This document shows, in pieces, positions 23,297-60,491 of a stretch of 64,000 bases of DNA (within the stretch, counting starts at the first letter, position 1; every line of letters starts with the position of its first letter). The DNA comes from Mycolicibacterium sp. MU0053 (lineage in GTDB: Bacteria > Actinomycetota > Actinomycetes > Mycobacteriales > Mycobacteriaceae). Location: contig NZ_OY726397.1 in assembly GCF_963378095.1 (NCBI RefSeq), positions 434,001-498,000 of the forward strand, in the 5' to 3' direction. Below the pieces are notes generated by a model. That model saw nothing but the letters and a program-made list of their open reading frames with translations. It was not told the DNA's origin and did not search any database. A program made the position numbers and the translations under genes.

Positions 23297-23524
23297 GTGA
23301 GCGTCAATCCGTTTGACGACGACAATGGCAATTTTGTCGTATTGATCAATGACGAAGAACAACACAGCCTTTGGCCAACCTTTGCCGACGTTCCGGCGGG
23401 TTGGAAGGTTGTCTACGGCGAGGCCGGCCGGACTGAGTGTCTGGAATACATGGAGCAGAACTGGCCCGACATAAGGCCCAGGAGTCTGCGCGAGAGGCTG
23501 GAGAGCCACTTCTCCGACCGATAG
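23297..23524 (+). CDS. MbtH-like NRPS accessory protein
   Basis: A 75-residue MbtH-like protein. These bind A domains and are needed for their solubility or activity. It shows the family pattern NPFDDDNGNFVVLINDEEQHSLWP, then P-x-GW (VPAGWKVVYGEAGRTECLEYM) and WPDIRPRSLRERL; the three conserved tryptophans are present. GTG 23297 follows GGGGAGG. It lies directly upstream of the first NRPS gene, with a 65-base gap containing a G9 tract, and likely serves the nine A domains of both synthetases. Confidence 0.93.
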   Translation: MSVNPFDDDNGNFVVLINDEEQHSLWPTFADVPAGWKVVYGEAGRTECLEYMEQNWPDIRPRSLRERLESHFSDR

Positions 23525-23547
23525 GCAGCTCAACAATTTAAGTGCCC

Positions 23548-23556
23548 GGGGGGGGG
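23548..23556 (+). repeat. G9 homopolymer between mbtH and the first NRPS gene
   Basis: Nine consecutive G bases. With the preferred ATG 23590 the tract is in the leader. If translation starts at GTG 23542 it lies at codons 3-5 and length changes would shift the frame. Such tracts are slippage-prone. Confidence 0.8.
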
Positions 23557-23589
23557 CATGGGGTAGTAAATCCTGCGGTGGGGGAACCA

Positions 23590-26500
23590 ATGCAGCATGA
23601 TGACCGGACGCTGCCCGTAACACGCGCACAGCTCGATATATGGCTGGCGGGGACTACGGCTTACAGCAGCACAGAATGGCAACTCGGCCTCTTCGTGAGG
23701 ATCGAGGGCACGCTAGACCGTGATGCCCTGGAGTGGGCGGTCCGTCGGGCGGTGCGCGAAGCCGAACCGGTTAGGGCCACCTTCTTCGAGAAGGACGGCC
23801 AGATCTTCCAAACGGCGCGCGACTATCCGAATGTCGAACTGGTCTGTCACGACCTGACCGGCTCTTCGGATCCCGTTGCGGACGCGCGCGAGATGGCAGC
23901 GTCGATGCAACGCACGCCGATGCCCTTCACTGGGCCGCTGTTCAAATTTGCGTTGTTTCAGACACAAGCCAATGAATCGTACTTCTTCGGTTGTTGTCAC
24001 CACATTGTCCTCGACGGAACCGGTATTGCCCTGGTAGGCCACCGGATTTCGGCGCTCTACTCTGCGGTCGTTTCCGGGGCGCCCATCCCAACTGCCCTGT
24101 TCGGCTCATTGTCTGATCTGGTTGACTGTGAGTCCCGGTACGAAGCGTCCGACGAGTACGTCGACGATGCCAACTATTGGAAGAACAACCTTCCCCCCGA
24201 CGCCGAATCGCCTCATCGGTTGCCCGACAAAGACAGCGCGGACGACCGACATTGGCCTTCTGCGCCAGCGCCATTGGACCCCGCGGTACTTCGCCGAGTC
24301 GAGGATCTATCCCGCGGTTGGAACGTTCCTCGTTCCTCGATCATCACCGCTGCCTGTGCACTGTTGGTTCGTGGTTGGCACGCCGAGGGTGCGGATGTAG
24401 TGCTCGATTTCCCAGTCAGCCGGCGTGTCAGTCCGGAGTCGAAGACACTTCCCGGGATGGTCGCGGGCGTGGTGCCGCTGGTTCTGAAGGCACGACCGGA
24501 TGATTCGGTGGCCAATTTCTGTGCACACGTCGATCTGCGTATCCGGGAAGCCCTGCGACATCAACGATTCCCGGTCTATTCCCTTGAACGCAAGATCAAC
24601 TCTCGTGCGCCTGGTCGGCTGGCGAGCCGGGTGAGCGTCAATTTCCTTCCATCTACCTTCACCCTGGACTTCGGGGGTCTGGCGGCGACGGCATCGCTGA
24701 CGAATGCCGGGATCGTGGGTGGTTTCGGGCTGGTCTTCTCAGGCATCGGCGACCAGCTTTCGCTCAGCACCATGGGTGCCGGACAACCGTTTTCGAATAT
24801 CGAGGCTCCTGAGCTGGCCCGCCATCTGGAGCGGGTGTTGGTGGCGATGACGGGTGATCCGGGGCGGCGGTTGTCGTCGGTGGATGTGCTCGATGGCGCC
24901 GAGCGGGTGCGGTTGGAGGAGTTCGGTCGGGGGGCGGTGTTGGCGGAGCCGGTGTCGGCGGTGTCGATTCCGGCGGTGTTCGCCGGGGAGGTGGAGCGTG
25001 CCCCGGATGCGGTCGCGTTGGTATCCGGCGATAGCTCGTGGACGTACCGAGAGTTGGATGAGGCGTCGAATCGGTTGGCGCACTTGTTGGCTGGTCTTGG
25101 TGCGGGACCGGGTCGGTGTGTGGCGTTGCTGCTGGAGCGTTCCGCGGCGGCGATCACGGCGATTGTGGCGGTGCTCAAGACCGGCGCGGCGTATCTGCCG
25201 ATCGATCCGGCGCATCCCGAGGCGCGGGTGCGGTTCATGGTGGAGGATGCGGCGCCGATTGCGGCGGTGAGCTCGCCCGGGCTGGTTGACCGGCTGGCCG
25301 GGTGTGCAGTGCTGGTGGTCGAGGTGGGGGATCCCCGCATCGACCACCAGCCCAGCACCGCATTGCCCGGGCCGGGGCCGATGGCCGAGGATGTGGCGCA
25401 CCTGATTTACACCTCGGGCACCACTGGGGCCCCGAAGGGGGTGGCGGTCACGCATGCCAATGTGACGCGGTTGTTCGACGGGCTGGATGTCGGCGTGGAG
25501 ATGGGTCCGGGTCAGGTGTGGACGCAGTGTTCGTCGTTGGCGTTCGACTATTCGGTGTGGGAGATCTGGGGTGCGTTGCTGCACGGGGGCCGGTTGGTGG
25601 TGGTTGCCGAGGACGTGACGCGTTCGCCGCAGGAGTTGCATGCGTTGTTGGTGGCCGAGAAGGTCAGTGTGCTCAGTCAGACCCCGTCGGCGGTCGGGGT
25701 GCTTGCGAGTGAGGGCTTGGAGTCGGCGGCGTTGATGATTGCTGCGGAGCCGTGTCCGGTGGAGGTGGTGGATCGGTGGGCGCCGGGTCGGGTGATGATC
25801 AACGGCTACGGTCCGACCGAGACGACGGTGTATGCCACGATCAGCGCGCCGTTGCAGGCCGGTGCCGGGGTGGTGCCGATCGGTTTCCCGGTTCCGGGGG
25901 CGGCACTGTTCGTGCTGGATCGGTGGTTGCGGCCGGTGCCGGTCGGGGTGGTCGGGGAATTGTATGTGGCCGGTCGTGGTGTCGGGTTGGGGTATGTGCG
26001 CCGGCCGGGGTTGACCGGATCCCGGTTCGTGGCGTGTCCGTTCGGGGCGCCAGGATCGCGCATGTACCGGTCCGGGGATCTGGTGCGTTGGGGTCCTGAC
26101 GGGCAGTTGCAGTATCTGGGCCGGGCCGATGAGCAGGTCAAGATCCGCGGCTACCGCATCGAACTCGGCGAGATCCAGGCGGTGCTGGCCGATCTGGACG
26201 GGGTCGAGCAGGCGGTGGTGATCGCCCGCGAGGACCGACCCGGCGACAAGCGCCTGGTCGGCTACATCACCGAGTCGGTTCCGGGCACCGTCGATCCGGT
26301 CGAGGGCCGGACCGCGCTTTCGGAGCGATTGCCGGCCTACATGGTGCCGACGGCGGTCGTGGTGCTGGATGCGTTGCCGCTGACGGTCAACGGGAAACTC
26401 GATCGCCGGGCCCTGCCCGCGCCGGAGTACTCCGACATCGACCACTACCGGGCACCGGCCAACGCGGTCGAGGAGATTCTGGCCGGTGTCTACGCCGAGG

Positions 26501-29500
26501 TCCTGGGTCTGGAACGCGTCGGGGTCGACGACTCCTTCTTCGACCTCGGCGGCGACTCGTTGTCGGCGATGCGCCTGATCGCCGCGATCAACACCAATCT
26601 CGACGCCGGATTGGCGGTCCGCGCCCTGTTCGACGCACCTACCGTCGCCCAGTTGGCGCCGCACATCGGGGAGAGTGCGGGCACGCGCGCGCCGCTGACG
26701 GCGCAGCAGCGCCCGGAGCGGGTGCCGTTGTCCTACGCCCAGAGCCGGATGTGGTTCCTCAACCGGTTCGAGGGCGGGGTCGCGACCTACAACATGCCTA
26801 CCGCCTTCCGGATCAACGGAAAGCTGGATGCCGAGGCGTTGGGGGCAGCGCTCGATGACGTGATCGCCCGCCACGAGTCGCTGCGCACGGTGTTCCCCGA
26901 CGTCGACGGTGTGCCCGTGCAGCAGGTACTGCCCGCGGCAGCGGGAATGTGGCGCCGCCGCGAAGCGACTGTGGTCTCGGTGTCGGAGCAGGACGTCGCG
27001 GCCGAACTGGTGACGCTGGCACAGTACCGGTTCGACCTATCGACCGAGATTCCGGTACGCGCCCACATCTACCGGGTCGGACCGGAAGAGCACGTGTTGG
27101 GTATTGTCCTGCACCACATTGCCTTTGACGGCTGGTCAATGGCTCCGATGGTCCGCGACGTGAGTGCCGCCTATCGAGCGCGGCGTCAGGGCGAAGCGCC
27201 GGGCTGGTCCCCGCTGCCGGTGCAGTACGTCGATTACACGCTGTGGCAACAGGGTTGGTTGGGAGTCGAGTCCGATCCCGAGAGCGTGATCACCGGACAG
27301 TTGGACTACTGGCGGCGCCAGCTGTCCGACTTGCCCGAGGTGGTGTCCCTGCCCACGGATCGGCCTCGCCCGCCGGTTCCCAGCTACCGCGGCGACGGTG
27401 TCGAACTGCGCATCGATCCGCAGACCTGGGCCGCGGTCAAGGCGCTCGCGGCCGAGCACAATGCCACGGCATCAATGGTGGTGCAGGCCGTGGTGGCGGT
27501 GCTGTTGCACCGGGCCGGGGTGGGTGAGGACGTGGCGATGGGCACGCCGATCGCCGGCCGGATGGATCAGGCCCTCGACGAGTTGGTCGGGTTCTTCGTC
27601 AACACCTGGGTGCTGCGAGTGGGGGTCAATCCCGGATTGCGGTTCACTGACGTGCTGGCGCAGGTGCGTCAGCAGGCCCTGGACGCCTACAGCAACCAGG
27701 ATGTGCCGTTCGAGTTGCTGGTGGAGCGGCTCAACCCGACCCGCTCCCCGTCTCATCACCCGTTGTTCCAGGTGGCCACGGTCTTCCAGAACAACGTGCG
27801 TCCCGAACTGGCATTCGACGGAATCGGCGTGCAACCGGTCGAGGTGGGCACGCGCACCGCCAAGTTCGATCTCGAATTCGATCTGCGTGAAGTGCCGACC
27901 GACGAATCCGACGCGCCCTTCGCCCTGCGGGAGATGCCCAGCGCGGACGCGGGCGCGGCGATGGCCGCCGGGACGCTGACCTATGCCACGGACCTGTTCG
28001 ACCGCGCCTCCATGCAGCGGTTGGTGGGGTGGTTCGGTCGGGTGGTCGAGGCTGTGGTGGCCGATCCCTCGGTGCTGGTGGGTCAGGTGGCGCTGCTGGA
28101 CCGCGGCGAGCGTGAGTTGGTGCTGTCGGATTGGGCCGGTGCGGGTGTGACGGCCCCGGTGGGGTTGGTGCCGGAGTTGTTGGCCGCCGCGGTGGCCGCC
28201 GATCCGGACGCGATTGCGCTCGTCGACGGGGTGCGGCAGTGGTCCTATCGCGCGCTCGACGTGTGGTCGACGCGGTTGGCTCGGGTGCTGATCGACTGCG
28301 GTGTCGGTCCGGAGCGCGCGGTCGGTGTGGTGATGGACCGCTGTGCCGAGTTGGTGGTGGCCTGGTGGGCGGTGCTCAAGGCCGGCGGGGTGTACGTGCC
28401 GGTGGATCGAGCGCATCCGGTCGAGCGGATCGCCACGGTGCTCGATGCTGCGGGTGCGGTGTGCGTGTTGACCTGTGGGGTCGATGTGGTGGCCGGTGCG
28501 GGTGAGCGTCCGGTGTTGCGGGTCGATGAGATGGATTTGTCGGGACGCAGCGCATATCCGATCACGGATGTCGATCGGCTGGCGCCGCTGTCCATCGACA
28601 ATCTGGCGTATGTGATCTTCACGTCGGGGTCGACGGGGACGCCGAAGGGGGTGGCGGTCGCCCACGCCGGTTTGTTGGGTGTGGCTGCGGCGCATCGTGA
28701 TTTGTTCGGGGTGGCTGCGGGGGCGCGGTTGTTGATGGTGGCCGCGCCGACGTTCGATGCCTCGGTGTTCGAGTGGTTGTGGGCGACGGCGTCGGGGGCG
28801 GCGTTGGTGGTGGCGCCGTCGGATTCGTATGCGGGTGAGGCGTTGTCGGCGCTGGTGGCCGAGCAGCGGGTGGATGCGGCGTTGCTGACCCCGACGGTGT
28901 TGGCGACGTTGGATCGGGATCGGCTGCGGGGGCGGTTGGGCACGCTGATCACCGGTGGAGAGGCATGTGCGCCGGAGTTGGTGGCGGGTTGGGCGCCGGG
29001 GCGCCGGATGTTCAATGCGTACGGTCCGACCGAGGTGTCCATCTGGGTGACCTGGAGCGCGTTGTCGGCGGGGCGACCGGTGGGCATCGGTGCCCCGATC
29101 CCGGGTGTGTGCGCGATGGTGCTCGACAGTCGGCTCAATCCGGTGCCGGTCGGGGTAGTCGGTGAGTTGTATCTGGCTGGAACAGGTTTGGCGCGCGGCT
29201 ACGTGGGCCGGCCGGATCTGACGGCGGATCGGTTTGTGGCCAATCCGTTCGGGGCCGCCGGTGCGCGAATGTATCGCAGCGGTGATCTGGTGCGGTGGAC
29301 TGCTACCGGTTCGTTGGAGTATCTGGGTCGTGCCGATGCGCAGGTGAAGTTGCGAGGGCAGCGGCTGGAACTCGGCGAGATCGAGAACACCCTGCTCGCC
29401 TGCCCGCAGGTCAACCGGGCCGCGGCCGCCCTGCACCACAGCGACACCGGCTCCCAACTGATCGCGTACCTGGCACTGGAGCGCACCAGCACCGCTGATC

Positions 29501-32500
29501 ATGAGGCCGAGGTGGTGGATCAGTGGCAGCACATCTATGACGAGTTGTATGACGCCCACCTCGAGGTCGCGGAGTTCGGCAGTGATTTCCGGGGTTGGAA
29601 CAGCAGCTACACCGGGCAGCCGATTCCGCTGCCGCAGATGCAGGAGTGGCGTTCGGCGGCAGTGGAGCGGATCCTGGCCCTGCGGCCGCAGCGGGTACTG
29701 GAGATCGGTGTGGGCTCGGGGTTGGTGCTGGCCCGGGTCGCTCCGGGATCGGTGGAGTATTGGGGGACGGACTTCTCGGCTCCCACCATCGAGACCCTGC
29801 GATCGGCGGTGGCAGTCCAGCCGTGGGGCGACCGGGTGCGGTTGCGGGCACAACCTGCGCACGTCACCGACGGGTTGCCACCAGGCCACTTCGACACCAT
29901 CGTCTGCAACTCGGTCGTGCAGTACTTCCCCAACTCTGGGTATCTGGCCGACGTTATCGGCAAGGCCCTGCAGCTGCTGGCACCCGGTGGCCGGCTTTTC
30001 ATCGGCGACGTGCGCAACTTCAGTCTCCAAGGCGCCTTCCAAACCGGTATCGCCCTGGCGCACACCGGCACCGATGCCGATACCGACGATGTGCGCCAAC
30101 GCGTGCAGCGGGCGATGCTGGGTGAACCCGAATTGCTACTGGCACCGGAGTTCTTCACCAGCCTGCTGGCCGAGCATGCTGAGGCGGCCGGCGTGGACAT
30201 CCAGGTCAAACGGGGAGAGGCCGACAACGAGCTGACCCGGTACCGCTACGACGTCACCATCCACAAGTCGCCGACCGCGGTGTGCTCGCTCGCCGCGGCG
30301 CCCACCTGGCAGTGGGGCGACTGCGCGAGCCTCAGCGGACTGCACGCCGAACTGAGCTCACAGCGCCCGAACCTGGTGCGCATCAGCGGTATTCCGCGTA
30401 GCGGTGTGATCGCCGACGTGCTCATCGAGCAGGCACTGGCCGAAGGGGCGCCGCTGGCGGAGGCGCTGGCACGCGCCGAGGCCACCGACGACACCGCCGC
30501 TCCCGAACAACTGCATCGCCTCGCCGCCACCATCGGATATCGGGTCATGGTCACCTGGGGTGCCGAACCCGGCACGCTCGATGCCGTCTTCCTGGCACGC
30601 GACGCAGGAGGGGATCCGGCGGCGTTCACCGACGTCTACCTACCGGTGACCGGTGCGCTGCAACGCAGCGCCTACGCCAGTGATCCCGATACCAACAGCA
30701 AGGTCAACGCGGTCCGGCAGTGGCTGTCCGCGCGGTTGCCGGAATACATGGTGCCGACGCATCTGATGGTGCTCGACGAGTTCCCGCTGACGACGTCGGG
30801 CAAGATCGACCGCAAGGCGCTACCGGAGCCGGTGCTGGCCGCCACGCAGTTCCGGGCGCCGAAGACACTGACCGAGATCACCGTCGCCGAGGTGTTCGGC
30901 GAGGTACTCGGGCTCGAGCGGGTCGGCCTCGACGACGACTTCTTCGCCCTCGGCGGCGATTCCCTGATCGCGATCCGGGTCAGCTCGCGGCTGCAATCGG
31001 CACTGGACAGAGAAGTGCCGGTGCGGTATCTGTTCGACACGCCGACGGCCGGCGCCCTTGCCGACTACCTGGATCGCAATCAGGGCCGCACAGCCCGCCC
31101 ACCGTTGCGACTGATGACGCGGCCCCCCCAGATCCCGCTGTCCTACGCCCAACAACGGTTGTGGTTCTTGGAGCAGTTGCAGGGGCCGTCGCCGATCTAC
31201 AACATGTCGGTGGCGTTGCAGTTGAGCGGTCCGCTGGAGGTGGACGCACTGGGTGCGGCGCTTGGCGATGTCGTGGGGCGGCACGAGAGTCTGCGTACCG
31301 TCTTTGCCGCTAGTGGGGGTGTGCCCCGGCAGGTGGTGGTACCGGTCGAGCAGGCAGATCTGGACTGGCAGGTGGTAGATGCGCTCGGCTGGTCGGCGGA
31401 CCGGTTGGCGGAGGAAATCGGAGAGGTGGCCCGGCACAGCTTTGACGTGGCCACCGAAATCCCCTTGCGGGCGACGCTGTTCCGGATCGCCGAGGACGAG
31501 CATGTGTTGGCCGCCGTGGTGCATCACATCGCCGCCGACGGCTGGTCAGTCACCCCGCTGGTGCATGACCTCAGTGTGGCGTATGCCAGCCGGTGCGCCG
31601 GGCGGGCGCCCGGCTGGAGTCCGCTGCCCGTGCAGTACGCCGATTATACGTTGTGGCAACAGGATTGGCTGGGCGTCGAGTCCGACCCCGACAGTGCGAT
31701 CGCCGGCCAGCTGTCGTATTGGGAGCAGGCGCTGGCCGGGTTGCCCGAGCGGTTGGAGTTGCCCACCGACCGGCCGTATCCCGCGGTGGCCGACTACCGG
31801 GGTGCCAGTGTGGCCGTCAACTTGCCCGCACAGCTGCAGCAGCAGATCGTGCGGGTCGCTCGCGAGCACAACGCCACCAGCGCCATGGTGGTCCAGGCCG
31901 CGCTGGCGGTACTGCTGGGCAAGCTCAGCGCCAGTCCCGATGTGCCCGTCGGAGTCGCGACCGCCGGACGCGGCGATCCGGCCCTGGACGAGTTGGTGGG
32001 TTTCTTCGTCAACACCCTGGTGCTGCGGGTCGATGCGTCCGGTGATCCCACGATCTCCGAGCTGCTGGATCAGGTGCGTCGGCGCAGCCTTGCCGCCTAT
32101 GAGCATCAGGACGTGCCGTTCGAGGTGCTGGTCGAACGGCTCAACCCGAGCCGGAGCCTGACCCACCATCCCCTGATCCAAGCGATGCTGACCTGGCAAA
32201 ACCTGCCCTGGCGCAGTACCGACCCCGCGGCCGGGCTGTCGCTGGGCTCCGTACGCGCCGTCCCGCTGCCGGCCGAAACCCGGACCGCGCGGATGGATCT
32301 GGTGTTTTCGCTGGCCGAACGCTTCGCCGAGGACGGTGCTCCGGCCGGCATCGAGGGGATCGTGGAGTTCCGCACCGACGTCTATGACGCGGCCAGCATC
32401 GAGACGATGGTTCGGCGCCTGGAGCGGGTGTTGGTGGCGATGACGGGTGATCCGGGGCGGCGGTTGTCGTCGGTGGATGTGCTCGATGGCGCCGAGCGGG

Positions 32501-35500
32501 TGCGGTTGGAGGAGTTCGGTCACCGCTCGGTGTTGGCGGAGGCCGGTTCGGCGGTGTCGATTCCGGAGTTGTTCGCTGAACAGGTGGAGCGCGCCCCGGA
32601 AGCGGTCGCGTTGGTATCCGGCGATAGCTCGTGGACGTACCGAGAGTTGGATGAGGCGTCGAATCGGTTGGCGCACTTGTTGGCTGGTCTTGGTGCGGGG
32701 CCGGGTCGGTGTGTGGCGTTGCTGCTGGAGCGTTCGGCGGAGGCGATCACGGCGATTGTGGCGGTGCTCAAGAGCGGCGCGGCGTATCTGCCGATCGATC
32801 CGGCGCATCCCGAGGCGCGGGTGCGGTTCATGGTGGAGGATGCGGCGCCGATTGCGGCGGTGAGCTCGCCCGGGCTGGCCGACCGGCTGGCCGGGTGTGC
32901 AGTGCTGGTGGTCGAGGTGGGTGATCCCCGCATCGACCACCAGCCCAGCACCGCATTGCCCGGGCCGGGGCCGATGGCCGAGGATGTGGCGCACCTGATT
33001 TACACCTCGGGAACCACGGGCATCCCGAAGGGGGTGGCGGTCACGCATGCCAATGTGACCCGGTTGTTCGACGGGCTGGATGTCGGCATCGAGATGGGTC
33101 CAGGGCAGGTGTGGACGCAGTGTTCGTCGTTGGCGTTCGACTACTCGGTGTGGGAGATCTGGGGTGCGTTGCTGCACGGGGGCCGGTTGGTGGTGGTTGC
33201 CGAGGACGTGACGCGTTCGCCGCAGGAGTTGCATGCGTTGTTGGTGGCCGAGAAGGTCAGTGTGCTCAGCCAGACCCCGTCGGCGGTCGGGGTGCTTGCG
33301 AGTGAGGGCTTGGAGTCGGCGGCGTTGATGATTGCTGCGGAGCCGTGTCCGGTGGAGGTGGTGGATCGGTGGGCGCCGGGTCGGGTGATGATCAACGGCT
33401 ACGGTCCGACCGAGACGACGGTGTATGCCACGATCAGCGCGCCGTTGCAGGCCGGTGCCGGGGTGGTGCCGATCGGTTTCCCGGTTCCGGGGGCCGCACT
33501 GTTCGTCCTGGATCGGTGGTTGCGGCCGGTGCCGGTCGGGGTGGTCGGGGAATTGTATGTGGCCGGTCGTGGTGTCGGGTTGGGGTATGTGCGCCGGCCG
33601 GGGTTGACCGGATCCCGGTTCGTGGCGTGTCCGTTCGGGGCGCCAGGATCGCGCATGTACCGGTCCGGGGATCTGGTGCGTTGGGGTCCTGACGGGCAGT
33701 TGCAGTATCTGGGCCGCGCCGATGAGCAGGTCAAGATCCGCGGCTACCGCATCGAACTCGGCGAAATCCAAGCTGTCCTGGCAGACTTGGACGGCGTCGA
33801 GCAGGCCGTGGTCATCGCCCGCGAAGACCGGCCTGACGACAAGCGCCTCGTTGGCTACCTCACTGGGACCGCGGATCCAGCAGAGGTGCGAGCCACGATG
33901 GCCGACCGGCTCCCGGCCTACATGGTCCCGGCGGCCATCGTGGCGCTCGACGAACTGCCGTTGACGGTCAACGGAAAACTCGACCGCCGCGCGCTGCCGG
34001 CTCCGGAGTATGGCGGGACCGGTGACGGTTACCGCGCGCCGGCAACTCCCACCGAAGAGATCCTGACCGGCATCTACGCGCAGGTCCTGGGTCTGGAACG
34101 CGTCGGGGTTGATGACTCCTTCTTCGACCTCGGCGGCGACTCACTCTCGGCGATGCGGCTGATCGCGGCCGTCAACGCAGCCCTTGACACCGAACTCGGC
34201 GTCCGCACGCTGTTCGACGCGCCCGCCGTGGCGCAACTCGCGCCGCGCGTTGGAGCCGGCAGCGGCCGCCCCGAACCCCTGGTGCCGATGCCCCGGCCCG
34301 CGGAGATCCCGTTGTCGTATGCGCAGCAGCGGTTGTGGTTCCTGGAGCAATTGCAGGGCCCGTCGCCGATCTACAACATGCCGATCGCGCTGCGGCTCAA
34401 CGGACGCCTCGACACCGATGCGTTGGGTCGTGCCCTGGCAGACGTGGTAACCCGGCACGAGAGCCTGCGTACCACCTTCACGGCCAGCGAAGGAGTGCCG
34501 CGGCAGGTGGTGGTGCCTGCCGAGTACGCGGATCTCGGCTGGCAGGTGGTGGACGCCGCGCAGTGGTCCGCCGCCCAACTGGCGGAGGAAGTCGGCGCGG
34601 TGGCGCGTCACAGCATTGACTTGATGAGTGAGATTCCCTTACGGGCCACCCTTTTCCGGCTGGCAGACGACGAGCATGTGCTGGTCGCCGTGGTGCATCA
34701 CATCGCCGCCGACGGCTGGTCGATCACTCCGCTGGTGACCGATCTGAGTGTGGCCTATGCCAGCCGATCCGCAGGCCGGTCGCCGGAGTGGACGCCGCTG
34801 CCGGTGCAGTACGTCGATTACACGCTGTGGCAGCGCGCCTATCTCGGCGATCTCACCGACGAGGGGAGTCGGATCGCGGCGCAGCTGAACTATTGGGAGC
34901 AGGCGTTGACCGGGCTGCCGGAGCGGCTGGAGTTGCCCACCGATCGGCCGTACCCATCCGTAGCGGACTACCGCGGCGCCAGCGTCGCGGTGCAATGGCC
35001 CACCGAGTTGCATCAGCGGATCGCTGGACTCGCCCGCGATCACCACGCCACCAACTTCATGGTGGTGCAGGCCGCACTGGCGATGCTGCTCTCCAAGCTC
35101 AGCGCCAGTTCCGATGTGGCTCTGGGCTTTGCGACCGCCGGCCGTACTGATCCGGCGCTGGATCAGCTGGTGGGATTCTTCGTCAACACCTTGGTGCTTC
35201 GGCTCGAAGTGGACGGCGATCCCACCGTCACCACACTGTTGGACCAGGTGCGCCAACGTGGACTGGCCGCATTCGAACATCAGGACGTGCCCTTCGAGTT
35301 ACTGGTCGACCGCCTCAACCCGGTTCGGTCCCTGACCCATCACCCGCTGGTCCAGGTGATGCTGTCATGGCAGAACTTCGCCGGCGACCCGGCCTCCGAG
35401 TTGACGCTGGGTGAGGCGCGGGCCATCCCGTTGGATACGGAAACCCAGACCGCCCGAATGGATCTGGTGTTCTCGTTGGCTGAACGCTTCGCCGAGGACG

Positions 35501-45080: not shown

Positions 45081-48000
45081 AGTGGGCGTGTGCCGTTGGC
45101 GGCGCAGCACCGGCCGCCGACAGTGCCGTTGTCGTATGCCCAGCAGCGGTTGTGGTTCCTGGACCAGTTGCAGGGTCCGTCACCGATCTACAACATGCCG
45201 GTGGCTCTGCGGCTGAGCGGCCCCCTGGATGCCGATGCGTTGGGGGCGGCGCTGGGCGACGTGGTGGGCCGTCATGAGAGCCTGCGCACGCTGTTCGCCG
45301 CAGACGAGGGAATCCCGCGGCAGGTTGTCATGCCCGCCGAGCAGGCCGATCTTGGTTGGCGGGTCGTCGATGCCACCGACTGGCCGGCGGACCGGCTGAC
45401 CGCGGCCCTCGAGGCGGCGGTGTGTCACACCTTTGATTTGAGCGCTGAGATCCCCTTGCGTGCAACGCTATTCCGCGTCGGCGAGGACGAGCACGTGTTG
45501 GTGATGGTGGTGCACCACATCGCCGCCGACGGGGGGTCGGTCCGACCGTTGGCGCGTGACCTCGGCGCGGCGTACGCCAGCCGGTGCGCGCAGCGGGAGC
45601 CGGACTGGGCGCCGTTGCCGGTGCAGTACGTCGATTACGCACTGTGGCAACAGGAGTGGCTGGGAGACGAGTCTGATCCCGACAGCGTGATTGCGGCGCA
45701 GTTGGGGTACTGGGAGCACGCGTTGGCCGGGCTGCCCGAGCGGCTGGAGCTGCCCACCGATCGGCCCTATCCTCCGGTGGCTGACTTCCGCGGCGCCACT
45801 GTGACGGTGGACTGGGCGGCCGAGCTGCAACATCAGGTGCGCGAGGTGGGCCGCGAGCACAATGCGACCGGGTTCATGGTGCTGCAGGCCGCGTTGGCGG
45901 TGCTGCTCTCGAAGCTGAGCGCCTGCGATGACGTGGCGGTGGGATTCCCGATCGCGGGCCGCGGCGACCCGGCATTGGAAGAGTTGGTGGGTTTCTTCGT
46001 CAATACCCTGGTGTTGCGGGTCGACCTGACCGACGATCCCAGCTTTGTCGAGCTGCTGGATCAGGTGCGCCAGCGCAGCCTGGCCGCATTCGAGCACCAG
46101 GATGTGCCCTTCGAGGTGCTGGTAGATCGGCTCAACCCGACTCGTAGCCTGACTCATCATCCCCTGGTTCAGGTGATGTTGGCTTGGCAGAACTTTGCCG
46201 AGGACCTCGGCGCCAAGTCGGCATTGGGTGAGGTAGAGGTCAGCGCGCTGCCCACGGACACCCAGGCTGCCCGGATGGACCTGACTTTCGCCCTGTCCGA
46301 GCGCTGGACCAGCGCCGGTGACCCGGCCGGCATCGGGGGCACGGTGGAATTTCGCACCGATGTGTTCGACGCGACCACCATCGAACTGCTCATCGAGCGA
46401 CTCCGGCGGGTCGTGGCGGCGGTGACGGCCGACCCGACCCGGCCGGTGTCGGCAGTGGACTTGGTCGATGACGCGGAGCGCGTCCGGCTGGACGGCTGGA
46501 GCAACCGGGCGGTGCTGGCCACGACCACGAGTCCGATCTCGATACCGGGCCTGTTCGCCGCCCAGGTCGACAGAGCCCCGGACGCAGTGGCGGTGACCTG
46601 TGACGGGCGTTCGATGACGTACCGCGAACTCGACGAGGCCGCAAATCGGCTGGCGCACCTGCTGGCCGCACACGGGGCCCGCCCGGGCCAGTCGGTGGCA
46701 CTGCTGCTTACCCGGTCGGCCGAGGCGGTCGCGGCGATTCTGGCGGTATTGAAGACGGGGGCCGCTTATCTGCCGATCGACCCGACCCTCCCGGCCGCCC
46801 GGGTCGAATTCATGGTGGCCGATGCCGCGCCGATCGCCGCACTGACCACCGCGGGGGCGGCTGAGCGGCTGGACGGATTCGCCCTGACGGTCATCGATAT
46901 CGACGATGAGCGCATCGGCGCTCAGCCCTGCACCGGCTTGCCAACGCCCGCTGCCGATGACGTCGCTTATGTCATCTACACCTCGGGCACCACTGGCACC
47001 CCGAAGGGCGTGGCGATCACCCACCACAACGTGACCCAGTGGTTGGGGACACCGGATGCCGAGCTGCCAGTGCAGGCATGGGCGCAATGGCACTCTTATG
47101 GCTTCGACGCCTCGGTGGAAGAAATCTGGGCTGCGTTGTTCCACGGTGGACGGCTGGTGGTGGTGCCCGAGACGGTCGCGGCCTCGCCCCGGGACCTGCA
47201 GGTGTTGCTGGCTGCCGAGCAGGTCAGCGTGTTGAGTCAAACACCGTCGGCGGTCGGGGTGATATCGCCCGAGGGGCTGGGGTCGGTCGCGTTGTTGGTG
47301 GCCGGTGAGCCGTGCCCGCCTCAGCTGGTGGACCGGTGGGCCCCAGGTCGGGTGATGATCAACGGCTACGGTCCGACCGAGACGACAGTGTGCGCGGCCC
47401 GGAGTGCGCCGTTGGCCGCTGGATCGTCGGTGGTGCCCATCGGTGCCCCGGTGGCGACGGCGGCGTTGTTTGTGTTGGATCGGTGGTTGCGTCCGGTGCC
47501 GGCGGGGGTGGTCGGTGAGTTGTATGTGGCCGGTCGTGGTGTCGGGGTGGGGTATGTGCGGCGGCCGGGGTTGACCGGGTTGCGGTTTGTGGCGTGTCCG
47601 TTCGGGGGTGCGGGTGCTCGGATGTATCGGACCGGGGATCTGGTGCGCTGGGGTGCTGATGGGCAGTTGCAGTATGTGGGCCGGGCCGATGAGCAGGTCA
47701 AGATTCGTGGTTACCGGGTCGAGTTGGGTGAAATTCAGTCCGCGTTGAGTGATTTGGCTGGTGTCGAGCAGGCGGCGGTGATCGCCCGTGAGGACCGTCC
47801 CGGTGACGTGCGCCTGGTCGGCTACATCACCGGGACCGCGCAACTGGGCGAGATCCGTGCTCAGCTCTCCGAACGCCTTCCCGGGTACATGGTGCCCGCG
47901 GCCGTCGTGGTGCTAGACGCAGTGCCATTGACCGCGAACGGCAAGCTGGACCGGCGGGCCTTGCCGGCACCGGAATACACCGAAACGGGTGAGGGGCATC

Positions 48001-51000
48001 GCGCCCCCACCACTTTCACCGAGGAGATCCTGGCCGGAATCTATGCCAAGGTGCTGGGGTTGGACCGGGTCAGCATCGACGACTCGTTCTTCGACCTGGG
48101 CGGCGATTCGTTGTCGGCGATGCGGGTGGTCGCGGCCGTCAACACCGTCCTGGACAGCGATCTGGCGGTGCGCACATTATTCGACGCACCCACGGTGGCA
48201 CAGTTGGCGCCGCGCATTGGCGAAGGTTCCGGCGGGTTACCGCGCTTGACCACCATGGAGCGGCCGACCGTCATCCCGTTGTCCTACGCGCAGAACAGGT
48301 TGTGGTTCCTCAATCGCTTCGAGGGCGAGGCCGCCACCTACAACATGCCGACCGCCTACCGACTCAGCGGGACGCTGGATGCGGCGGCGATGCAGGCGGC
48401 TTTGGGCGATGTGGTGGGCCGCCATGAAAGTCTGCGCACGCTGTTGCCGGCCGTTGACGGTGTGCCTCGGCAGGTTGTGTTGCCCGCCGACCAGGTTGAG
48501 GTGGACTGGCAGGTTGTTGATGCCACCGGCTGGACGATGGAGCGGATCGGCGCGGCCATTGGGAACGCAGTGCGTCACAATTTCGATCTGTCCGTTGAAA
48601 TCCCGTTGCGAGCGTGGCTTTTTCGGCTGGCGGACAACGAACACATCCTGGTGTCCGTCATGCACCATATCGCAGGTGACGGTTGGTCGGTCACCCCGCT
48701 GGTGCATGACCTCAGTGTGGCGTATGCCAGCCGGTGCGCCGGGCGGGCGCCGGACTGGGCCCCGCTGCCGGTGCAGTACGTCGACTACACGCTGTGGCAG
48801 CGGCAGCATTTGGGTGATCTGACCGATCCCGACAGCGCCATCTCGGGACAGTTGTCTTATTGGGAGCAGGCGCTGGCCGGGTTGCCCGAGCGGTTGGAGT
48901 TGCCCACCGACCGGCCGTATCCACCGGTGGCCGACTATCGAGGCGACAGCGTAACCGTGGACTGGCCGGCCGAACTGCAGCAGCAGGTGGCGCGAATCGC
49001 CCGCGAGCACAACGCCACCAGCTTCATGGTGATGCAGGCCGCACTCGCGGTACTGCTGTCACAGTTGAGTGCTAGTTCCGATGTGGCGGTGGGATTTCCG
49101 ATTGCGGGGCGCCGGGATCCGGCCCTGGACGAGTTGGTGGGTTTCTTCGTCAACACCCTGGTGCTGCGGGTCGATGCGTCCGGTGATCCCACGCTGTCCG
49201 AGTTACTGGATCAGGTGCGCCTGCGCAGCCTGGCCGCTTTCGAGCATCAGGACGTGCCGTTCGAGGTGCTGGTCGAACGGCTCAACCCGAGTCGGAGCCT
49301 CAGTCACAATCCCCTGATCCAGGTGATATTCGCTTGGCAGAACCTGCCGTGGGAGGACGACAACGCGGCGACCGCATTGAGCCTGGGCGATCTGCAGGTG
49401 GCACCGCTGGCCGCCGAAACCCACACCGCCCGCATGGATCTGGTGTTTTTTCTCCGGGAACACTGGACCCAGGACGGCGAGCCGGCCGGGATCTGGGGAA
49501 CGGTGGAGTTCCGCACCGACGTGTTCGACGCCGCCAGCATCGACGCGTTGATCCGTCGGTGGCAGCGGGTGTTGGTGGCGATGACGGGTGATCCGGGGCG
49601 GCGGTTGTCGTCGGTGGATGTGCTCGATGGCGCCGAGCGGGTGCGGTTGGAGGAGTTCGGTCACCGCTCGGTGTTGGCGGAGGCCGGTTCGGCGGTGTCG
49701 ATTCCGGAGTTGTTCGCTGAACAGGTGGAGCGCGCCCCGGAAGCGGTCGCGTTGGTATCCGGCGATAGCTCGTGGACGTACCGAGAGTTGGATGAGGCGT
49801 CGAATCGGTTGGCGCACTTGTTGGCTGGTCTTGGTGCGGGACCGGGTCGGTGTGTGGCGTTGCTGCTGGAGCGTTCCGCGGCGGCGATCACGGCGATTGT
49901 GGCGGTGCTCAAGAGCGGCGCGGCGTATCTGCCGATCGATCCGGCGCATCCCGAGGCGCGGGTGCGGTTCATGGTGGAGGATGCGGCGCCGATTGCGGCG
50001 GTGAGCTCGCCCGGGCTGGTTGACCGGCTGGCCGGGTGTGCAGTGCTGGTGGTCGAGGTGGGGGATCCCCGCATCGACCACCAGCCCAGCACCGCATTGC
50101 CCGGGCCGGGGCCGATGGCCGAGGATGTGGCGCACCTGATTTACACCTCGGGCACCACTGGGGCCCCGAAGGGGGTGGCGGTCACGCATGCCAATGTGAC
50201 GCGGTTGTTCGACGGGCTGGATGTCGGCGTGGAGATGGGTCCGGGTCAGGTGTGGACGCAGTGTTCGTCGTTGGCGTTCGACTATTCGGTGTGGGAGATC
50301 TGGGGTGCGTTGCTGCACGGGGGCCGGTTGGTGGTGGTTGCCGAGGACGTGACGCGTTCGCCGCAGGAGTTGCATGCGTTGTTGGTGGCCGAGAAGGTCA
50401 GTGTGCTCAGTCAGACCCCGTCGGCGGTCGGGGTGCTTGCGAGTGAGGGCTTGGAGTCGGCGGCGTTGATGATTGCTGCGGAGCCGTGTCCGGTGGAGGT
50501 GGTGGATCGGTGGGCGCCGGGTCGGGTGATGATCAACGGCTACGGTCCGACCGAGACGACGGTGTATGCCACGATCAGCGCGCCGTTGCAGGCCGGTGCC
50601 GGGGTGGTGCCGATCGGTTTCCCGGTTCCGGGGGCGGCACTGTTCGTGCTGGATCGGTGGTTGCGGCCGGTGCCGGTCGGGGTGGTCGGGGAATTGTATG
50701 TGGCCGGTCGTGGTGTCGGGTTGGGGTATGTGCGCCGGCCGGGGTTGACCGGATCCCGGTTCGTGGCGTGTCCGTTCGGGGCGCCAGGATCGCGCATGTA
50801 CCGGTCCGGGGATCTGGTGCGTTGGGGTGCTGACGGGCAGTTGCAGTATCTGGGCCGCGCCGATGAGCAGGTCAAGATCCGCGGCTACCGCATCGAACTC
50901 GGCGAAATCCAGGCCGTACTGGCCGCCCATCCACGGGTGGCGCAAGCCGTGGTCATCGCCCGCGAAGACCGACCCGGCGACAAGCAGTTGGTGGGTTATG

Positions 51001-54000
51001 CGGTGCCGGATCCGGAGATGAGACTGATCCGGGAGCGGTCGCGGGAAACCCAGCTCGTCGGGCAATGGCAGGAGGTGTACGAGGACCTGTACTCGGGGGC
51101 AGCGTTCACCGGAGGCGCACCGGCCGAGTTGGGGGAGGACTTCGGCGGCTGGAACAGCAGCTACACCGACGCACCGATTCCGCTGGAGCAGATGCGGCAG
51201 TGGCGGTCGGCCGCGGTGGAGCGGATCCTGGCGTTGCGGCCGCAACGGGTGCTGGAGATCGGCGTCGGCTCCGGACTGCTGCTCGCCCATGTGGCGCCCG
51301 GGTGTACCGAGTACTGGGGCACTGACTTTTCGGCGGAGACGATCCAGACGCTGCGGGCCGGGCTGGCCGGACAGCCGTGGGGTGATCGAGTGCGGTTGCG
51401 GGTGCAACCGGCCGATGTGGCCGACGGGTTGCCGGAGGGCCATTTCGATGCCGTGGTGCTCAATTCGGTCGTTCAGTACTTCCCGAGCGCGGGGTATCTG
51501 CTCGATGTGCTGTCCGTGGCGATGCGGTCGCTGGCGCCGGGCGGCGCGGTGTTCATCGGCGACGTGCGCAACCTTTCGTTGCTGCGCGCATTCACCACCG
51601 GGGTCGTCTGCGTCGAGGCCTCTGGTGATCAGTCGGCGGCGGCGGTCCGCGAACGGGTGCGTCGGGAGATGCTGGCCGAGCAGGAACTGTTGGTCGCCCC
51701 GGAGTTCTTCACGGCGCTGCCGCAGCGTATCGGTGAGATCGCCGCGGTCGAAGTGCAGTTGAAGCAGATGCAGGCGGTCAACGAACTCAGCGGATATCGG
51801 TATGAGGTGGTGCTGCATAAGGGGCCGGCCCTGGTGCGCTCGATGGCGGATCTGCCGTCACAACCCTGGGAACGGTTCGGGACTCTCGCCACGATCAGGG
51901 AATACCTGGTGGCGCAGGGGCTGCCACAGCTGCGTGTGACCGGTGTGCCGCACGCCGGGATCTGGTCCGAGGTGGCGCTGGCGGAGGCGCTGGAGCAGGC
52001 CGACGCCCGGGTGAGCCTCGGCGAGTTGCGCGCCGGCCTCACCGCACCCGATGCGGTGCTGCCGCACCAGTGCCAGCTGCTGGGCGAGGAACTGGGGTAC
52101 GACACCGCGGTCACGTTGTCGCCGACCGCTGGGCTGATGGACCTCACCTACATGCACGTCCCGGCCTCGTCGAAAGGCATTCCGCCCCAGGCACTGTCGG
52201 ATCTGTACCTGCCGTCCACGGAGGTCGGATCCCTGGCCGACTACGTCAACGACCCCGCGGCGATCGAACGCGGGGCGGAACTGCGTGACTTTGTGGCTGA
52301 CCGGTTGCCGGAGTACATGGTGCCTGCGGCGATCATGACGATCGAATCGTTGCCCCTGACCGTCAACGGAAAGTTGGACCGCAAGGCGTTGCCGGCGCCG
52401 GAGTTCAACAGCGGCGTCGCCTACCGGGCGCCGCGCGACGAACGCGAACGGGCGTTGGCCGCGCTGTTCAGCGATGTTCTCGGGGTGAGTCAGGTCGGCA
52501 TCGACGACTCGTTCTTCGACCTCGGTGGGCATTCACTGTCCGCGACTCGGCTCATCGCGCGGATTCGGGCGGACTTGGATGTCGACGTTCCGATTCGGGC
52601 CCTGTTCGATGCGCCGACCGTATCCGGGTTGAGCGAATGGATCAACGCGCATGCCGAGCAACGGTCGGGGGCCGTGTTGGCGGCCCGCGAACGGCCGGCG
52701 GTACTGCCCTTGTCGTATGCCCAGCAGCGGCTGTGGTTCCTGGACCAGTTGCAGGGGCCGTCACCGGTGTACAACATGCCGACGGCATATCGGATCAGCG
52801 GGCAGCTCGACGCGGCGGCGTTGGGGGCAGCGCTGGGCGACGTGGTGAGTCGCCATGAGAGCCTGCGCACCCAGTTCCAGGTGGTCGACGGTGTCCCGCG
52901 GCAGGTGGTGGTGCCCACCGAACGGGCCGACTTCGGTTGGAAGATAGTTGATTCCAGCGGTTGGTCGACGGACAGGCTCACGGAAGCAGTAGGCGCGGCG
53001 GTCCGCTATACGTTCGATCTCGCCGCTGAAACCCCCCTCCGGGCAACACTTTTCCGCATCAGTGCAGACCAGCACGTCCTGGTGGTGGTGGTACATCATA
53101 TCGCCGCGGACGGTTGGTCGATCGCTCCGCTGGTGCGTGACCTGGGGCTGGCCTACGTCTGCCGGAGTTCGGGGCGGGCGCCGGATTGGGCGCCGTTGCC
53201 GGTGCAATATGCCGATTACACGTTGTGGCAGCGCGAGCATCTGGGTGACCTGGCCGATCCGGACAGCCGGATCGCGGCACAGCTGGCCTATTGGGAGCAC
53301 GCGTTGGCCGGGCTGCCCGAGCGGCTGGAGTTGCCCACCGACCGGCCGTATCCGCCGGTGGCTGATTATCGGGGCGCCAGCGTGGCGGTCGACTGGCCGG
53401 CCGAATTGCAGCAACAGGTGGCCCGAGTCGCCCGCGAGCATGACGCGACCAGTTTCATGGTGGTGCAGGCCGCTCTGGCGGTACTACTGGCTGAGCTGAC
53501 CGGCAACAGCGATGTGCCGGTGGGGTTCCCGATTGCCGGCCGACGCGAGACGGCACTCGATGATCTGGTGGGCTTCTTCGTCAATACCCTGGTGCTGCGG
53601 GTCGAGTTGGCCGGCGACCTGACGGTGACGGAGTTGCTGGCCCAGGTGCGCCAACGCAGCCTGGCCGCCTACGAACACCAGGACGTGCCCTTCGAGGTGC
53701 TGGTGGATCGACTCAACCCGTCACGAAGCCTGACCCACCACCCCCTGGTTCAGGTGATGCTGGGTTGGCAGAACTTCGGTGGACAGCACGGTGGCGAATC
53801 GACAGCTGGATCCACGATGGGTGATGTGCAGGTCAGCCCATTGGTCGCAGACACTCAGGCCGCCCGCATGGATCTCGCATTCTCCCTCGAGGAACGCTTC
53901 ACCGGGGCCGGCGAACCAGCCGGGATCGGCGGGTCTGTCGAGTTCCGCACCGATGTGTTCGACGCGGCCCGCATAGAAACACTTGTCGGCCGGCTGCAGC

Positions 54001-56696
54001 GCGTGTTGGCGGCGATGACCGCCGACCCGACCCGGCGGCTCTCGTCGGTCGATGCGTTGGATACCGCCGAGCGGGTGCGGCTGGACATGTTCGGCAACCG
54101 GGCGGTGCTGGCCCGGCCCACGACCGAACGATCGGTTCCGGAACTGTTCGCCGACCAGGTCGCACGCGCCCCGCAGGCGGTGGCGATCCGCTGCGACGGC
54201 CACGCGATGACGTACCGGGAGCTCGATGAGACGGCCACGCGGTTGGCGCACTTGTTGATTGACCACGGAGCTGCGCCGGGACAGTGTGTGGCGTTGCTGT
54301 TCGCCCGGTCGACCGAAGCCATCGTGGCAATGCTGGCGGTGCTCAAGACCGGTGCCGCCTATCTGGCGATGGATCCGGCTCATCCCACCGCGCGGATCGA
54401 GTTCATGCTGGCCGATGCCGCGCCGATCGCCGCCGTGACCACCGCAGGCCTGGCCGACCGGCTGAACCAGGGCGACACCACAATCATCGATGTCGAAGAC
54501 CCTCGCCTAGACCGCCAGCCCAGCACCGTCTTGCCGGCACCGACCGCCGATGACATCGCGTACCTGATCTACACCTCGGGCACCACCGGCACTCCGAAGG
54601 GGGTGGCCATCGCGCACCGAAACCTGGTCCACCTGGCGGAGTCCATGCCCCTGGGCCTGCCGGAGACCCAGGTGTGGACGCAGTGCCACTCCTACGCCTT
54701 CGACTTCTCGGTGTGGGAGATCTGGGCGGCCTTACTGACCGGCGGGCGGCTGGTGGTGGTGCCCGAAGTCGTGGCGGGCGCACCGGAGGAGCTACACGCC
54801 TTGGTCGTGCGTGAGCACGTGAACGTGCTCACGCAGACTCCGTCCGCGGTGGGGATGCTGGCGCCGCAGGGCTTGGAGTCCGTGGCGCTGCTGCTCGGCG
54901 GTGAGCCCTGCCCAGTCCAGGTGGTGGATCGGTGGGCACTCGACCGGACGGTGATCAACGCCTATGGTCCGACCGAGGCCACGGTCTACGCCACGATGAG
55001 TGCGCCGTTGGCCGCTGGATCGTCGGTGGTGCCCATCGGTGCCCCGGTGGCGACGGCGGCGTTGTTTGTGTTGGATCGGTGGTTGCGTCCGGTGCCGGCG
55101 GGGGTGGTCGGTGAGTTGTATGTGGCCGGTCGTGGTGTCGGGGTGGGCTATGTGCGGCGGCCGGGGTTGACCGGGTTGCGGTTTGTGGCGTGTCCGTTCG
55201 GGGGTGCGGGTGCTCGGATGTATCGGACCGGGGATCTGGTGCGCTGGGGTGCTGATGGGCAGTTGCAGTATGTGGGCCGGGCCGATGAGCAGGTCAAGAT
55301 TCGTGGTTACCGGGTCGAGTTGGGTGAAATTCAGTCCGCGTTGAGTGATTTGGCTGGTGTCGAGCAGGCGGCGGTGATCGCCCGTGAGGACCGTCCCGGT
55401 GACGTGCGCCTGGTCGGCTACATCACCGGGACCGCGCAACCGGGCGAGATCCGTGCTCAGCTCTCCGAACGCCTTCCCGGGTACATGGTGCCCACCGCAG
55501 TAATGCCGGTGAATGTGCTGCCGTTGACGCCCAATGGCAAACTCGACACCCGCGCCCTGCCTGCTCCCGAATTCGCCGACACCGGACGGGATTACGTCGG
55601 CCCAACCACGTTCACCGAGGAGGTCTTGGCCGGCATCTACGCCGAGGTGCTGGGGCTGGAACGCGTCGGCATCGACGACTCGTTCTTCGACCTGGGCGGC
55701 GATTCACTGTCGGCGATGCGCGTGATCAGCGCGGCCAACAAGGCGTTGGCCTCCCATCTGGCTGTCCGCGCCATCTTCGACGCACCTTCGGTACGAAGCC
55801 TGGCCCACCAGGTGGGCTGCTCCGACGGGGCAGCGGAACTGGTCCCCGTCGAAATCCTCAGGGAGGGCAAGGGCGTCCCGTTGTGTTGCATTCACGATGG
55901 TTTCGGGCTGAGCTGGTCTTATCGGGCGTTGGACGATCAGCTGGACTGCCCGATCATCGGAATCAATCAACTTCCGCAGGATGGCGAAGTCGAACCGGGA
56001 TCGATTCGCAGCATGGCTGCCAACTATGCGGACAGACTCCAAGCGCTTTATCCGGACGGTCCCTACCAGCTGCTTGGCTGGTCGTTCGGTGGCGTGGTTG
56101 CTCACGCGCTCGCGGTCGAGCTGCAGCGACGCGGGTGTGAGGTGCAACGCCTCGTACTCTTGGACGCCGCGCTGAGCGCGAACGTGATGAACAAGATCAG
56201 GATGGGTGCCTACCGGACCATTGCGCGGAATCGCGCTCTCGCCGAAGGGCACGTATTGGAATACATCTTGCGGACCAATCGCATGAGCGTCCCTGCGCAT
56301 TGGCGGCCGATCACGTATCAGCAGGCCGAAGAATTGATCCAGCATCGGGGGATGGACTTCGCCCTGCCGCCCCGGGAATTGGTGGAATTCATGGTTCACA
56401 GCCTGAATACGAACCAGGAGTGCCTGCTCGAGCACGTGCCCGATGTGTACGACGGCGACATCGTCATCTTCTCCGCCGCGCGACGTCGGAATCAGGACCG
56501 AAAGAACCCCGAATCGATCTCGCGGTGGCGGGGACTGCGAAACCGAATGGCGACCCGCTCAAACCTGCAAAGCTGGCGTACCTATGCAACCGGTAATGTC
56601 ACCGCACACTCGGTCGATTGCACGCATTATGAAATGTTCGCGACCAACTCGCTGAGGGAATACGGGGAAAAACTCAAGTCGGCACTCAAGGCGTAA
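43200..56696 (+). CDS. giant NRPS 2: A-T/C-A-T/C-A-MT-T/C-A-T-TE
   Basis: A 4,498-residue synthetase completing the line with modules 6 (A and T only), 7, 8 and 9 and a thioesterase. Carrier serines lie at residues 587, 1637, 3112 and 4169; C-domain HHxxxDG at 772, 1822 and 3299; the SAM motif [10 protein letters not shown] at 2684. The thioesterase (from about residue 4215) has [10 protein letters not shown] with nucleophile Ser4295 and probable Asp4322 (LVLLDAAL) and His4476 (DCTHYEMF). Module 8 alone has the carrier motif GGHS, while the other eight carriers have GGDS. Release may be hydrolytic or by cyclisation; sequence does not decide. The gene begins by overlapping the stop of NRPS 1 and is convergent with an ICMT-family gene 65 bases beyond its end. 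Confidence 0.93.
45110..48230 (+). other. NRPS module 7: C - A7 - T7
   Basis: C7 has HHIAADGGS at 45513, where the other C domains carry HHxxxDGWS or HHIVLDG. A7 has FDASVEE, giving the unusual code DAESLAGVCK with Glu at pocket position 3. T7 serine at 48108. The residue is not predictable by me. The C-terminal A part is shared almost base for base with A9. Confidence 0.75.
47403..47897 (+). repeat. 495-bp A-subdomain repeat, copy in module 7
   Basis: Matches 54999-55493 of module 9 with two differences seen by eye. It begins just after the A5 pocket motif and ends in the A9/A10 linker, so the pockets are not shared. Confidence 0.9.
48260..52650 (+). other. NRPS module 8: C - A8 - N-methyltransferase - T8
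   Basis: C8 opens with the FLNRFEGE signature of modules 2 and 5 but continues as the other C lineage (HHIAGDG at 48663). A8 is near-identical to A1/A3, code DYWSMAGVYK. An MT with [10 protein letters not shown] at 51249 follows, then A10 (NGKLDRK near 52370). T8 serine at 52533 in GGHS. It predicts the N-methylated form of the module 1/3/4 residue. Confidence 0.8.
49565..50828 (+). repeat. A-domain DNA repeat, copy in module 8
   Basis: Mosaic copy: its first about 275 bases match module 3, and the following about 1 kb matches module 1 almost perfectly, apart from AAGAGC near 49911, which is the module 3 form. Confidence 0.9.
52690..56690 (+). other. NRPS module 9: C - A9 - T9 - thioesterase
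   Basis: C9 has HHIAADG at 53094. A9 has FDFSVWEIW and [12 protein letters not shown], giving the code DFWTLGAVYK; residue not assigned. T9 serine at 55704. The TE spans about 55850-56690 with the GWSFGG serine at 56082 and His codon at 56625. Confidence 0.8.
54999..55493 (+). repeat. 495-bp A-subdomain repeat, copy in module 9
   Basis: Partner of 47403-47897 in module 7. The two differences I see are GGGCTATGTG for GGGGTATGTG and CAACCGGG for CAACTGGG. Confidence 0.9.
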
Positions 56697-60418: not shown

Positions 60419-60491
60419 CAGCGGAGCCTCGTTGATTGCTTGTTGTTCTCCATCTCGGACCTCCCAGGTTCGCTTCGCACCGGTATCGCTG

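Follow-up and report, generated by a model that had tools for sequence, protein, structure and literature searches.

We analyzed a window of 64,000 nucleotides from the closed 5.45 Mb genome of Mycolicibacterium sp. MU0053 (contig NZ_OY726397.1, positions 434,001 to 498,000; G000:C1:434001-498000), which carries a nine-module non-ribosomal peptide synthetase (NRPS) in two subunits, N1 and N2 (Table 1). Very probably, these genes encode an intact assembly line whose product is a linear acyl-nonapeptide, a member of the fortuitine family other than fortuitine itself. The original prediction placed the NRPS start at 23297, but that position begins an MbtH-like gene; an MbtH match also lies upstream of subunit 1 in the related loci tabulated for neighbours. 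The N1 open frame extends back to GTG 23542, and ATG 23590 is most likely its start since it yields the 'MQ.D' N-terminus seen in relatives.

Table 1. Features of the NRPS locus in window coordinates, with N1 given from its most likely start (domain abbreviations as in the text).
Feature	Position	Strand	Remarks
MbtH-like protein gene, 75 aa	23297..23524	+	Pfam MbtH 1.1e-27
NRPS subunit N1: starter C, modules 1-5 (MT in 2, 5), module 6 C	23590..43203	+	
N-methyltransferase, module 2	29488..30615	+	related to PDB 5wmm, 327 bits
N-methyltransferase, module 5	40204..41343	+	
NRPS subunit N2: module 6 A-T, modules 7-9 (MT in 8), TE	43200..56696	+	
A domain, module 7	46608..47702	+	pocket DAESLAGVCK, Glu at 239 (basic-residue-like)
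A domain, module 8	49770..50876	+	99.7% DNA identity to module 1 A
N-methyltransferase, module 8	51039..52181	+	
A domain, module 9	54201..55298	+	pocket DFWTLGAVYK
Thioesterase domain	55815..56693	+	Pfam Thioesterase 2.2e-26
ICMT-family membrane methyltransferase, 221 aa	56762..57427	-	Pfam PEMT 43.4, ICMT 42.3 bits, above cut-offs

Domains were called by motifs and by hidden Markov models (HMMs) built from the window's own domains, with Pfam as a cross-check. Written with condensation (C), adenylation (A), thiolation (T), N-methyltransferase (MT), and thioesterase (TE) domains, N1 reads C-A-T / C-A-MT-T / C-A-T / C-A-T / C-A-MT-T / C, and N2 reads A-T / C-A-T / C-A-MT-T / C-A-T-TE. Both together contain nine A, nine T, nine C, three MT, and one TE (GWSFG), and each MT is inserted downstream of A8, before the A10 end of the A domain. 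Motifs and HMMs confirmed the organization first proposed for this locus: a starter C, nine A/T pairs, MT restricted to modules 2, 5, and 8, a terminal TE, and no epimerase (E). Pfam agreed on the TE and, in module 2, on the A and MT domains.

Both frames are open end to end, and every A, T, C, and MT match presents its core motif. N1 and N2 overlap by 4 bases (ATGA), as in 17 of 18 loci with the window counted; in the exception, G012, 282 bases separate the frames. Since the overlap is identical in so many loci, we rejected a sequencing frameshift as the origin of the split. In the family, window included, the break between subunits comes after the module 6 C domain and carries this overlap; in G020 it comes after C7. 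A silent locus –intact, with its product not made under ordinary conditions– is improbable: some 33 kb of open frames with intact core motifs, and a layout that other species share, speak for use now or in the recent past.

Epimerase domains were absent from the window NRPS, as no doubled C was found. In a tree of 60 C domains, the eight internal C domains of the window were all in the LCL part, and none belonged to the clade whose C domains come after an E, or after a gap of E size, in other mycobacterial synthetases, a clade identified from its position. With this placement, the peptide is expected to be all L.

Pocket codes were read by alignment to a GrsA template. Modules 1, 3, 4, and 8 have the same pocket, DYWSMAGVYK, the last of them with an MT; modules 2 and 5 have alike pockets (DAFLIGAIWK and DAFVIAAIWK), and module 6 is Thr-like (DVWSVGMVHK), all as first noticed. 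Those of modules 7 and 9 are listed in Table 1. DFWSVGMVHK is placed in the Thr section of PMC12283262.

Using module 1 DNA as query, we found the same locus type in relatives. The starter C query retrieved 137 relatives in named genomes. All but one of the best 80 were titled Mycobacterium, Mycolicibacterium, or Mycobacteriaceae, the exception being an uncultured actinobacterium (L052), and M. fortuitum was not among these 80. At 1e-60 or better, the TE was matched in 117 of the 396 genomes of the genus; viral contigs yielded no relative. At about 173-225 kb of G006:C1 (L006 is a piece of it), an open frame of ~16,070 aa has this TE family at its end and many evenly spaced A-domain matches.

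We read 15 nine-module loci in full, which were picked as relatives and not randomly. Seven have MT in modules 2, 5, and 8: the window, G021 (probably M. peregrinum 852002-51209), G044 (M. frederiksbergense), G047, G051, G302 (probably Mycolicibacterium sp. YH-1), and G169. Five carry MT in modules 2 and 5 only, together with the full fortuitine pocket series: G046 (M. houstonense), G174 (probably M. lutetiense), G346, G398, and G377. The remaining three are G323 (MT in 2 and 5, eight of nine codes), G012 (MT in 2 and 5, reductase end), and G020 (MT in 2, 5, 8, and 9). Left out of the 15 were G064, whose subunit 1 spans two overlapping frames; G041, a draft with a broken or incomplete subunit 1; G073 and G043, each of eight modules; and G045 (two loci), G049, G057, G061, G060, G042, G062, G068, and G059, with other module numbers or an incomplete stretch.

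We take fortuitine of M. fortuitum to be an acylated Val-MeLeu-Val-Val-MeLeu-Thr-Thr-Ala-Pro with acetylated Thr residues and a methyl ester. A 1965 title in the reference list of PMC3509699 calls it an acylnonapeptide methyl ester. In the five loci with the full series, positions 1, 3, and 4 have a common pocket, DYWSMAGVYK (DFWSMAGVYK in G398), and positions 2 and 5 combine an MT with similar pockets (DAFLVGAIWK, DAFLAGLIWK, DAFIAGLIWK). Positions 6 and 7 read DYWS[VI]GMVHK, position 8 DVWSVAAVYK, and position 9 DVWNVAG-YK (DVWNVAGWYK in another alignment). Compared with this structure, nine of nine positions fit in their pattern of equal and unequal residues and in methylation. Position 9 does not present Val236-Gln239, a frequent Pro-type pocket according to PMC12283262, and its Pro call comes from fortuitine only. 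These five loci are likely fortuitine synthetases; in the open-access literature –subscription papers were mostly outside the scope– we found no paper naming the fortuitine genes.

The window shares with these loci the starter C, the nine modules, MT in 2 and 5, Val-type pockets at 1, 3, and 4, and a Thr-type pocket at 6. Modules 1 to 6 agree, with a module 5 pocket that is alike, not identical. It departs from them at modules 7-9, where it reads DAESLAGVCK (basic-residue-like), DYWSMAGVYK (Val-type, with a third MT), and DFWTLGAVYK, versus DYWSVGMVHK, DVWSVAAVYK, and DVWNVAG-YK in M. houstonense; no Thr, Ala, or Pro-position pocket is found there.

A second difference lies beside the NRPS. 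A WS/DGAT-like acyltransferase of at least 56% identity (an assignment by weak family match, with one of three tested proteins lacking a Pfam match) adjoins the NRPS in 8 of 18 genomes, seven with the Thr-Thr-Ala-Pro second subunit plus G012. For the ten remaining genomes, among them that of the window, the best acyltransferase match has 39-43% identity and is located elsewhere (40% in the window genome). G043, outside this 18-genome search, also has a WS/DGAT-like gene. This enzyme is a candidate for Thr O-acetylation in fortuitine, and since none adjoins the window NRPS, an unacetylated Thr6 is predicted.

Could the window itself be the fortuitine synthetase, with misleading pocket readings at modules 7-9? 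It belongs to the same family, lies in the same place, and has the same first six positions as the fortuitine-fitting loci. However, the third MT, the three unlike pockets, and the lack of an acyltransferase like theirs disagree; we rejected this identity, which has only a very slight chance of being right. The evidence favours a new member of the fortuitine family. From the original prediction, the match over the first six positions stands with the reservation on module 5, as does the difference at modules 7-9, and the choice it left between fortuitine's own locus and a variant with three N-methyl residues falls to the latter.

By transfer from the fortuitine pattern, the predicted residues are Val1, MeLeu2, Val3, Val4, Thr6, and MeVal8; module 5, with its MT, is predicted to add an N-methylated branched aliphatic residue. 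We infer N-methylation at residues 2, 5, and 8. For module 7, the code presumably resembles the bacitracin Lys code, a likeness not found in print. Its Glu239 is also present in the Arg, Orn, and Lys codes DVESIGGVTK, DMEDVGSVDK, and DGEDHGTVVK (PMC12283262), which suggests a basic residue. The identical code recurs in both second subunits of G302 and in P0002, so we rejected a sequencing error in this pocket. At module 7, seven loci of the 2, 5, 8 layout (G021, G044, G047, G051, G064, G073, G169) have DVWTMAAMGK or DVWTVAAMGK, and P0009 and P0011, of the same layout, an Ala-type pocket. No substrate was matched to DFWTLGAVYK, DVWTMAAMGK, or DIWGLGQMWK, and our open-access literature search found none of the codes searched.

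The ICMT family esterifies a carboxyl, and a gene of this family, not mentioned in the original prediction, lies 65 bases beyond the NRPS stop. The protein matched PDB 4a2n, a solved ICMT, at 1.6e-7, and the NCBIfam isoprenylcysteine methyltransferase with 55 bits, below the cut-off of 160. Across the 396 genomes, the 12 best non-window matches (58-69% identity) were all close to a TE of the window family, 11 of them at 17-372 bases and that of G174 at 2956; the next two (G196, G331) were not beside such a TE. This enzyme is probably the one that methylates the C-terminal carboxyl of the product. The line of G012 has a thioester-reductase end (L014:17554-18852; NAD_binding_4, 198.6 bits) in place of the TE, from which a C-terminal amino alcohol is predicted. 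Its fetched stretch has no ICMT homologue –the genome has one match, place not listed– and reductase release would leave no carboxyl to methylate. In G169, a C-terminal ICMT fragment lies between the NRPS and htpG (L157, about 15250-15480), likely a relic of the methyltransferase gene.

In the proposed pathway, the starter C would acylate Val1, and modules 2 to 9 would add, in order, MeLeu, Val, Val, an N-methylated branched aliphatic residue, Thr, a basic (Lys-like) residue, MeVal, and a hydrophobic residue, each of them L like Val1. The TE would release a linear free acid, and the adjacent ICMT-like membrane enzyme would probably methylate the released carboxyl. Thus, the predicted product is acyl-Val-MeLeu-Val-Val-MeXaa-Thr-(Lys-like)-MeVal-Xaa, all L, linear, and probably a methyl ester. 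Residue identities (by transfer from fortuitine and by general codes), linear release, and acyl chain are all predictions, and residues 5, 7, and 9 and the ester are the least sure parts.

Several observations weigh against parts of this prediction. The substrates of modules 7 and 9 are read from codes alone, and the solved structures nearest the module 7 A domain in a PDB search are of linear gramicidin synthetase, with epsilon-poly-lysine synthase far lower. Regarding the ester, G021, G047, G051, and G064, all of the 2, 5, 8 layout, have htpG directly after the TE with no ICMT between, G169 has only its fragment, and the stretches fetched for G044 and G073 showed no ICMT gene. An intact ICMT gene is at the locus in two (window, G302) of the nine genomes with a third MT in the first or only second subunit, and 335 of the 396 genomes have an ICMT homologue at 1e-30. 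Thus, either the ester is not a general feature or an unlinked homologue makes it, and the four loci without the gene make the methyl ester the weaker claim. A TE release with an adjoining carboxyl methyltransferase, present in the window and missing in some relatives, does not define the family.

The commonness of ICMT-like proteins and those four same-layout loci also speak for a different release, with cyclisation by the TE (a lactone through Thr6 would be one case) and an ICMT-like gene that acts on some other substrate. Moreover, TE domains of lipopeptide synthetases often cyclise. However, fortuitine is a methyl ester by its 1965 title, the lipopentapeptide L5P has a C-terminal methyl ester (PMC8103206), and the 12 best ICMT matches are all beside TEs of the window family. 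We therefore regard cyclisation as unlikely, and keep the linear, probably esterified peptide.

At the DNA level, the A domains of modules 1, 3, and 8 share 98.0-99.7% identity, and that of module 4 shares 88.8-89.7% with these three. A domains with the same pocket from seven relatives reach 72.8-83.7% against the window. Modules 1 and 3 are 91-100% identical along the A domain and 70-82% after it (drops before the A domain, and after it for module 8, are less telling because the neighbouring domains differ in type). Modules 7 and 9 have a common patch of 99-100% identity, and in G398 and G302 all three first-subunit Val pockets have Phe instead of Tyr at 236. This pattern fits A-domain copying within a genome, and the 99.7% between modules 1 and 8, versus the values for relatives, points to a residue changed by such a copy. 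Copying is not universal: the copies are 73.5-77.2% identical in G021 and 77.8-83.9% in G346.

Seven genomes (G041, G046, G302, G323, G346, G377, G398) have a second N2-type gene after the first (L102, L105, L142, L146-L147, L148, L154-L155, L158). Its N-terminus resembles that of the first N2 in the six genomes for which it was compared, so both may dock to one N1, which may thereby serve two N2 subunits and give two nonapeptides. The window genome has a single TE match at 1e-60 and one second subunit only. As a tentative proposal, which we hold a little short of probable, the locus would make an undescribed, cationic, tri-N-methylated acyl-Val-MeLeu-Val-Val-Me(Leu/Ile/Val)-Thr-Lys-MeVal-Xaa-OMe, within a family that evolves by whole-A-domain copying, which would hold one Val pocket constant along a line, and whose relatives pair one first with two second subunits, one strain giving two nonapeptides that share their first five residues.

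The structure of fortuitine was published in 1965, and our comparison nominates its genes in the M. fortuitum group, together with candidate tailoring enzymes: the ICMT-like one for the methyl ester and the WS/DGAT-like one for the Thr acetyl groups. An old orphan product becomes testable by gene removal, and the window adds a predicted new lipopeptide.

To the left of the locus, we found genes for a P450, acyl-CoA dehydrogenases, a ChsH2-type protein, a thiolase, an FAD oxidoreductase, an FAA hydrolase, an acetaldehyde dehydrogenase, and an aldolase, a set of the cholesterol-catabolism type. To the right lie the ICMT-family gene, htpG, a Sap-type protein, and part of a Pks2-like polyketide synthase. 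The NRPS sits between the cholesterol-catabolism genes and htpG, the position of the family. Over 20 related stretches, several of which stop short of these neighbours, htpG adjoins the NRPS in 10 and the acetaldehyde dehydrogenase gene is at the opposite side in 7. Window positions 59609-63964 together with L139 encode a Sap-type protein, a methyltransferase, a Pks2-like polyketide synthase, an AMP-binding FadD-type enzyme, and two MmpL transporters; by its gene content, this adjoining stretch is a lipid-export locus. The genome also has a second lipopeptide-type NRPS (G000:C1:2104154-2137271; L140-L141, L161), with a starter C, eight A domains, and E-sized spaces, an MbtH match upstream, an ICMT-like gene at its end, and GT28-type glycosyltransferase and P450 genes nearby.

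Among known systems, the module 2 MT is related (327 bits) to PDB 5wmm, which we take to be the thiocoraline synthetase TioS; both are embedded in an interrupted A-MT-A domain, but pathway and substrate differ. The ICMT-like gene shares with 4a2n a membrane methyltransferase family, but it falls far below the isoprenylcysteine cut-off, and a lipopeptide substrate is proposed for it. Glycopeptidolipids (GPL) have a D-Phe-D-alloThr-D-Ala-L-alaninol core made by Mps1/Mps2 with the MbtH-like GplH (PMC3537567), which resembles the window as a mycobacterial lipopeptide NRPS with an MbtH-like gene upstream. Nevertheless, we rejected a GPL assignment for the window, which has nine modules and a TE and lacks E domains, against four modules, epimerases, and reductive release for GPL.

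L5P of M. avium subsp. paratuberculosis (D-Phe-MeVal-Ile-Phe-Ala, PMC8103206) resembles the predicted window product in being a linear mycobacterial peptide that is N-acylated, N-methylated, and methyl-esterified at its C-terminus. It has five residues and a D-Phe, whereas the window has nine predicted residues and no epimerase. In Mycobacterium sp. 4858 (L136-L137), modules 1-5 correspond in order to the residues of L5P (Phe-MeVal-Ile-Phe-Ala), and module 1 is followed by an E; a further E after module 5 and then more modules make this a partial calibration. The likely fortuitine loci (M. houstonense L102-L104, M. lutetiense L151-L152, G346, G398, and G377) share with the window, besides the module pattern described above, the MbtH-like gene upstream, the TE, and the split after C6 with its 4-base overlap. 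The window differs from them in its third MT, its pockets at modules 7-9, its single second subunit, and the absence of an adjoining WS/DGAT-like acyltransferase.

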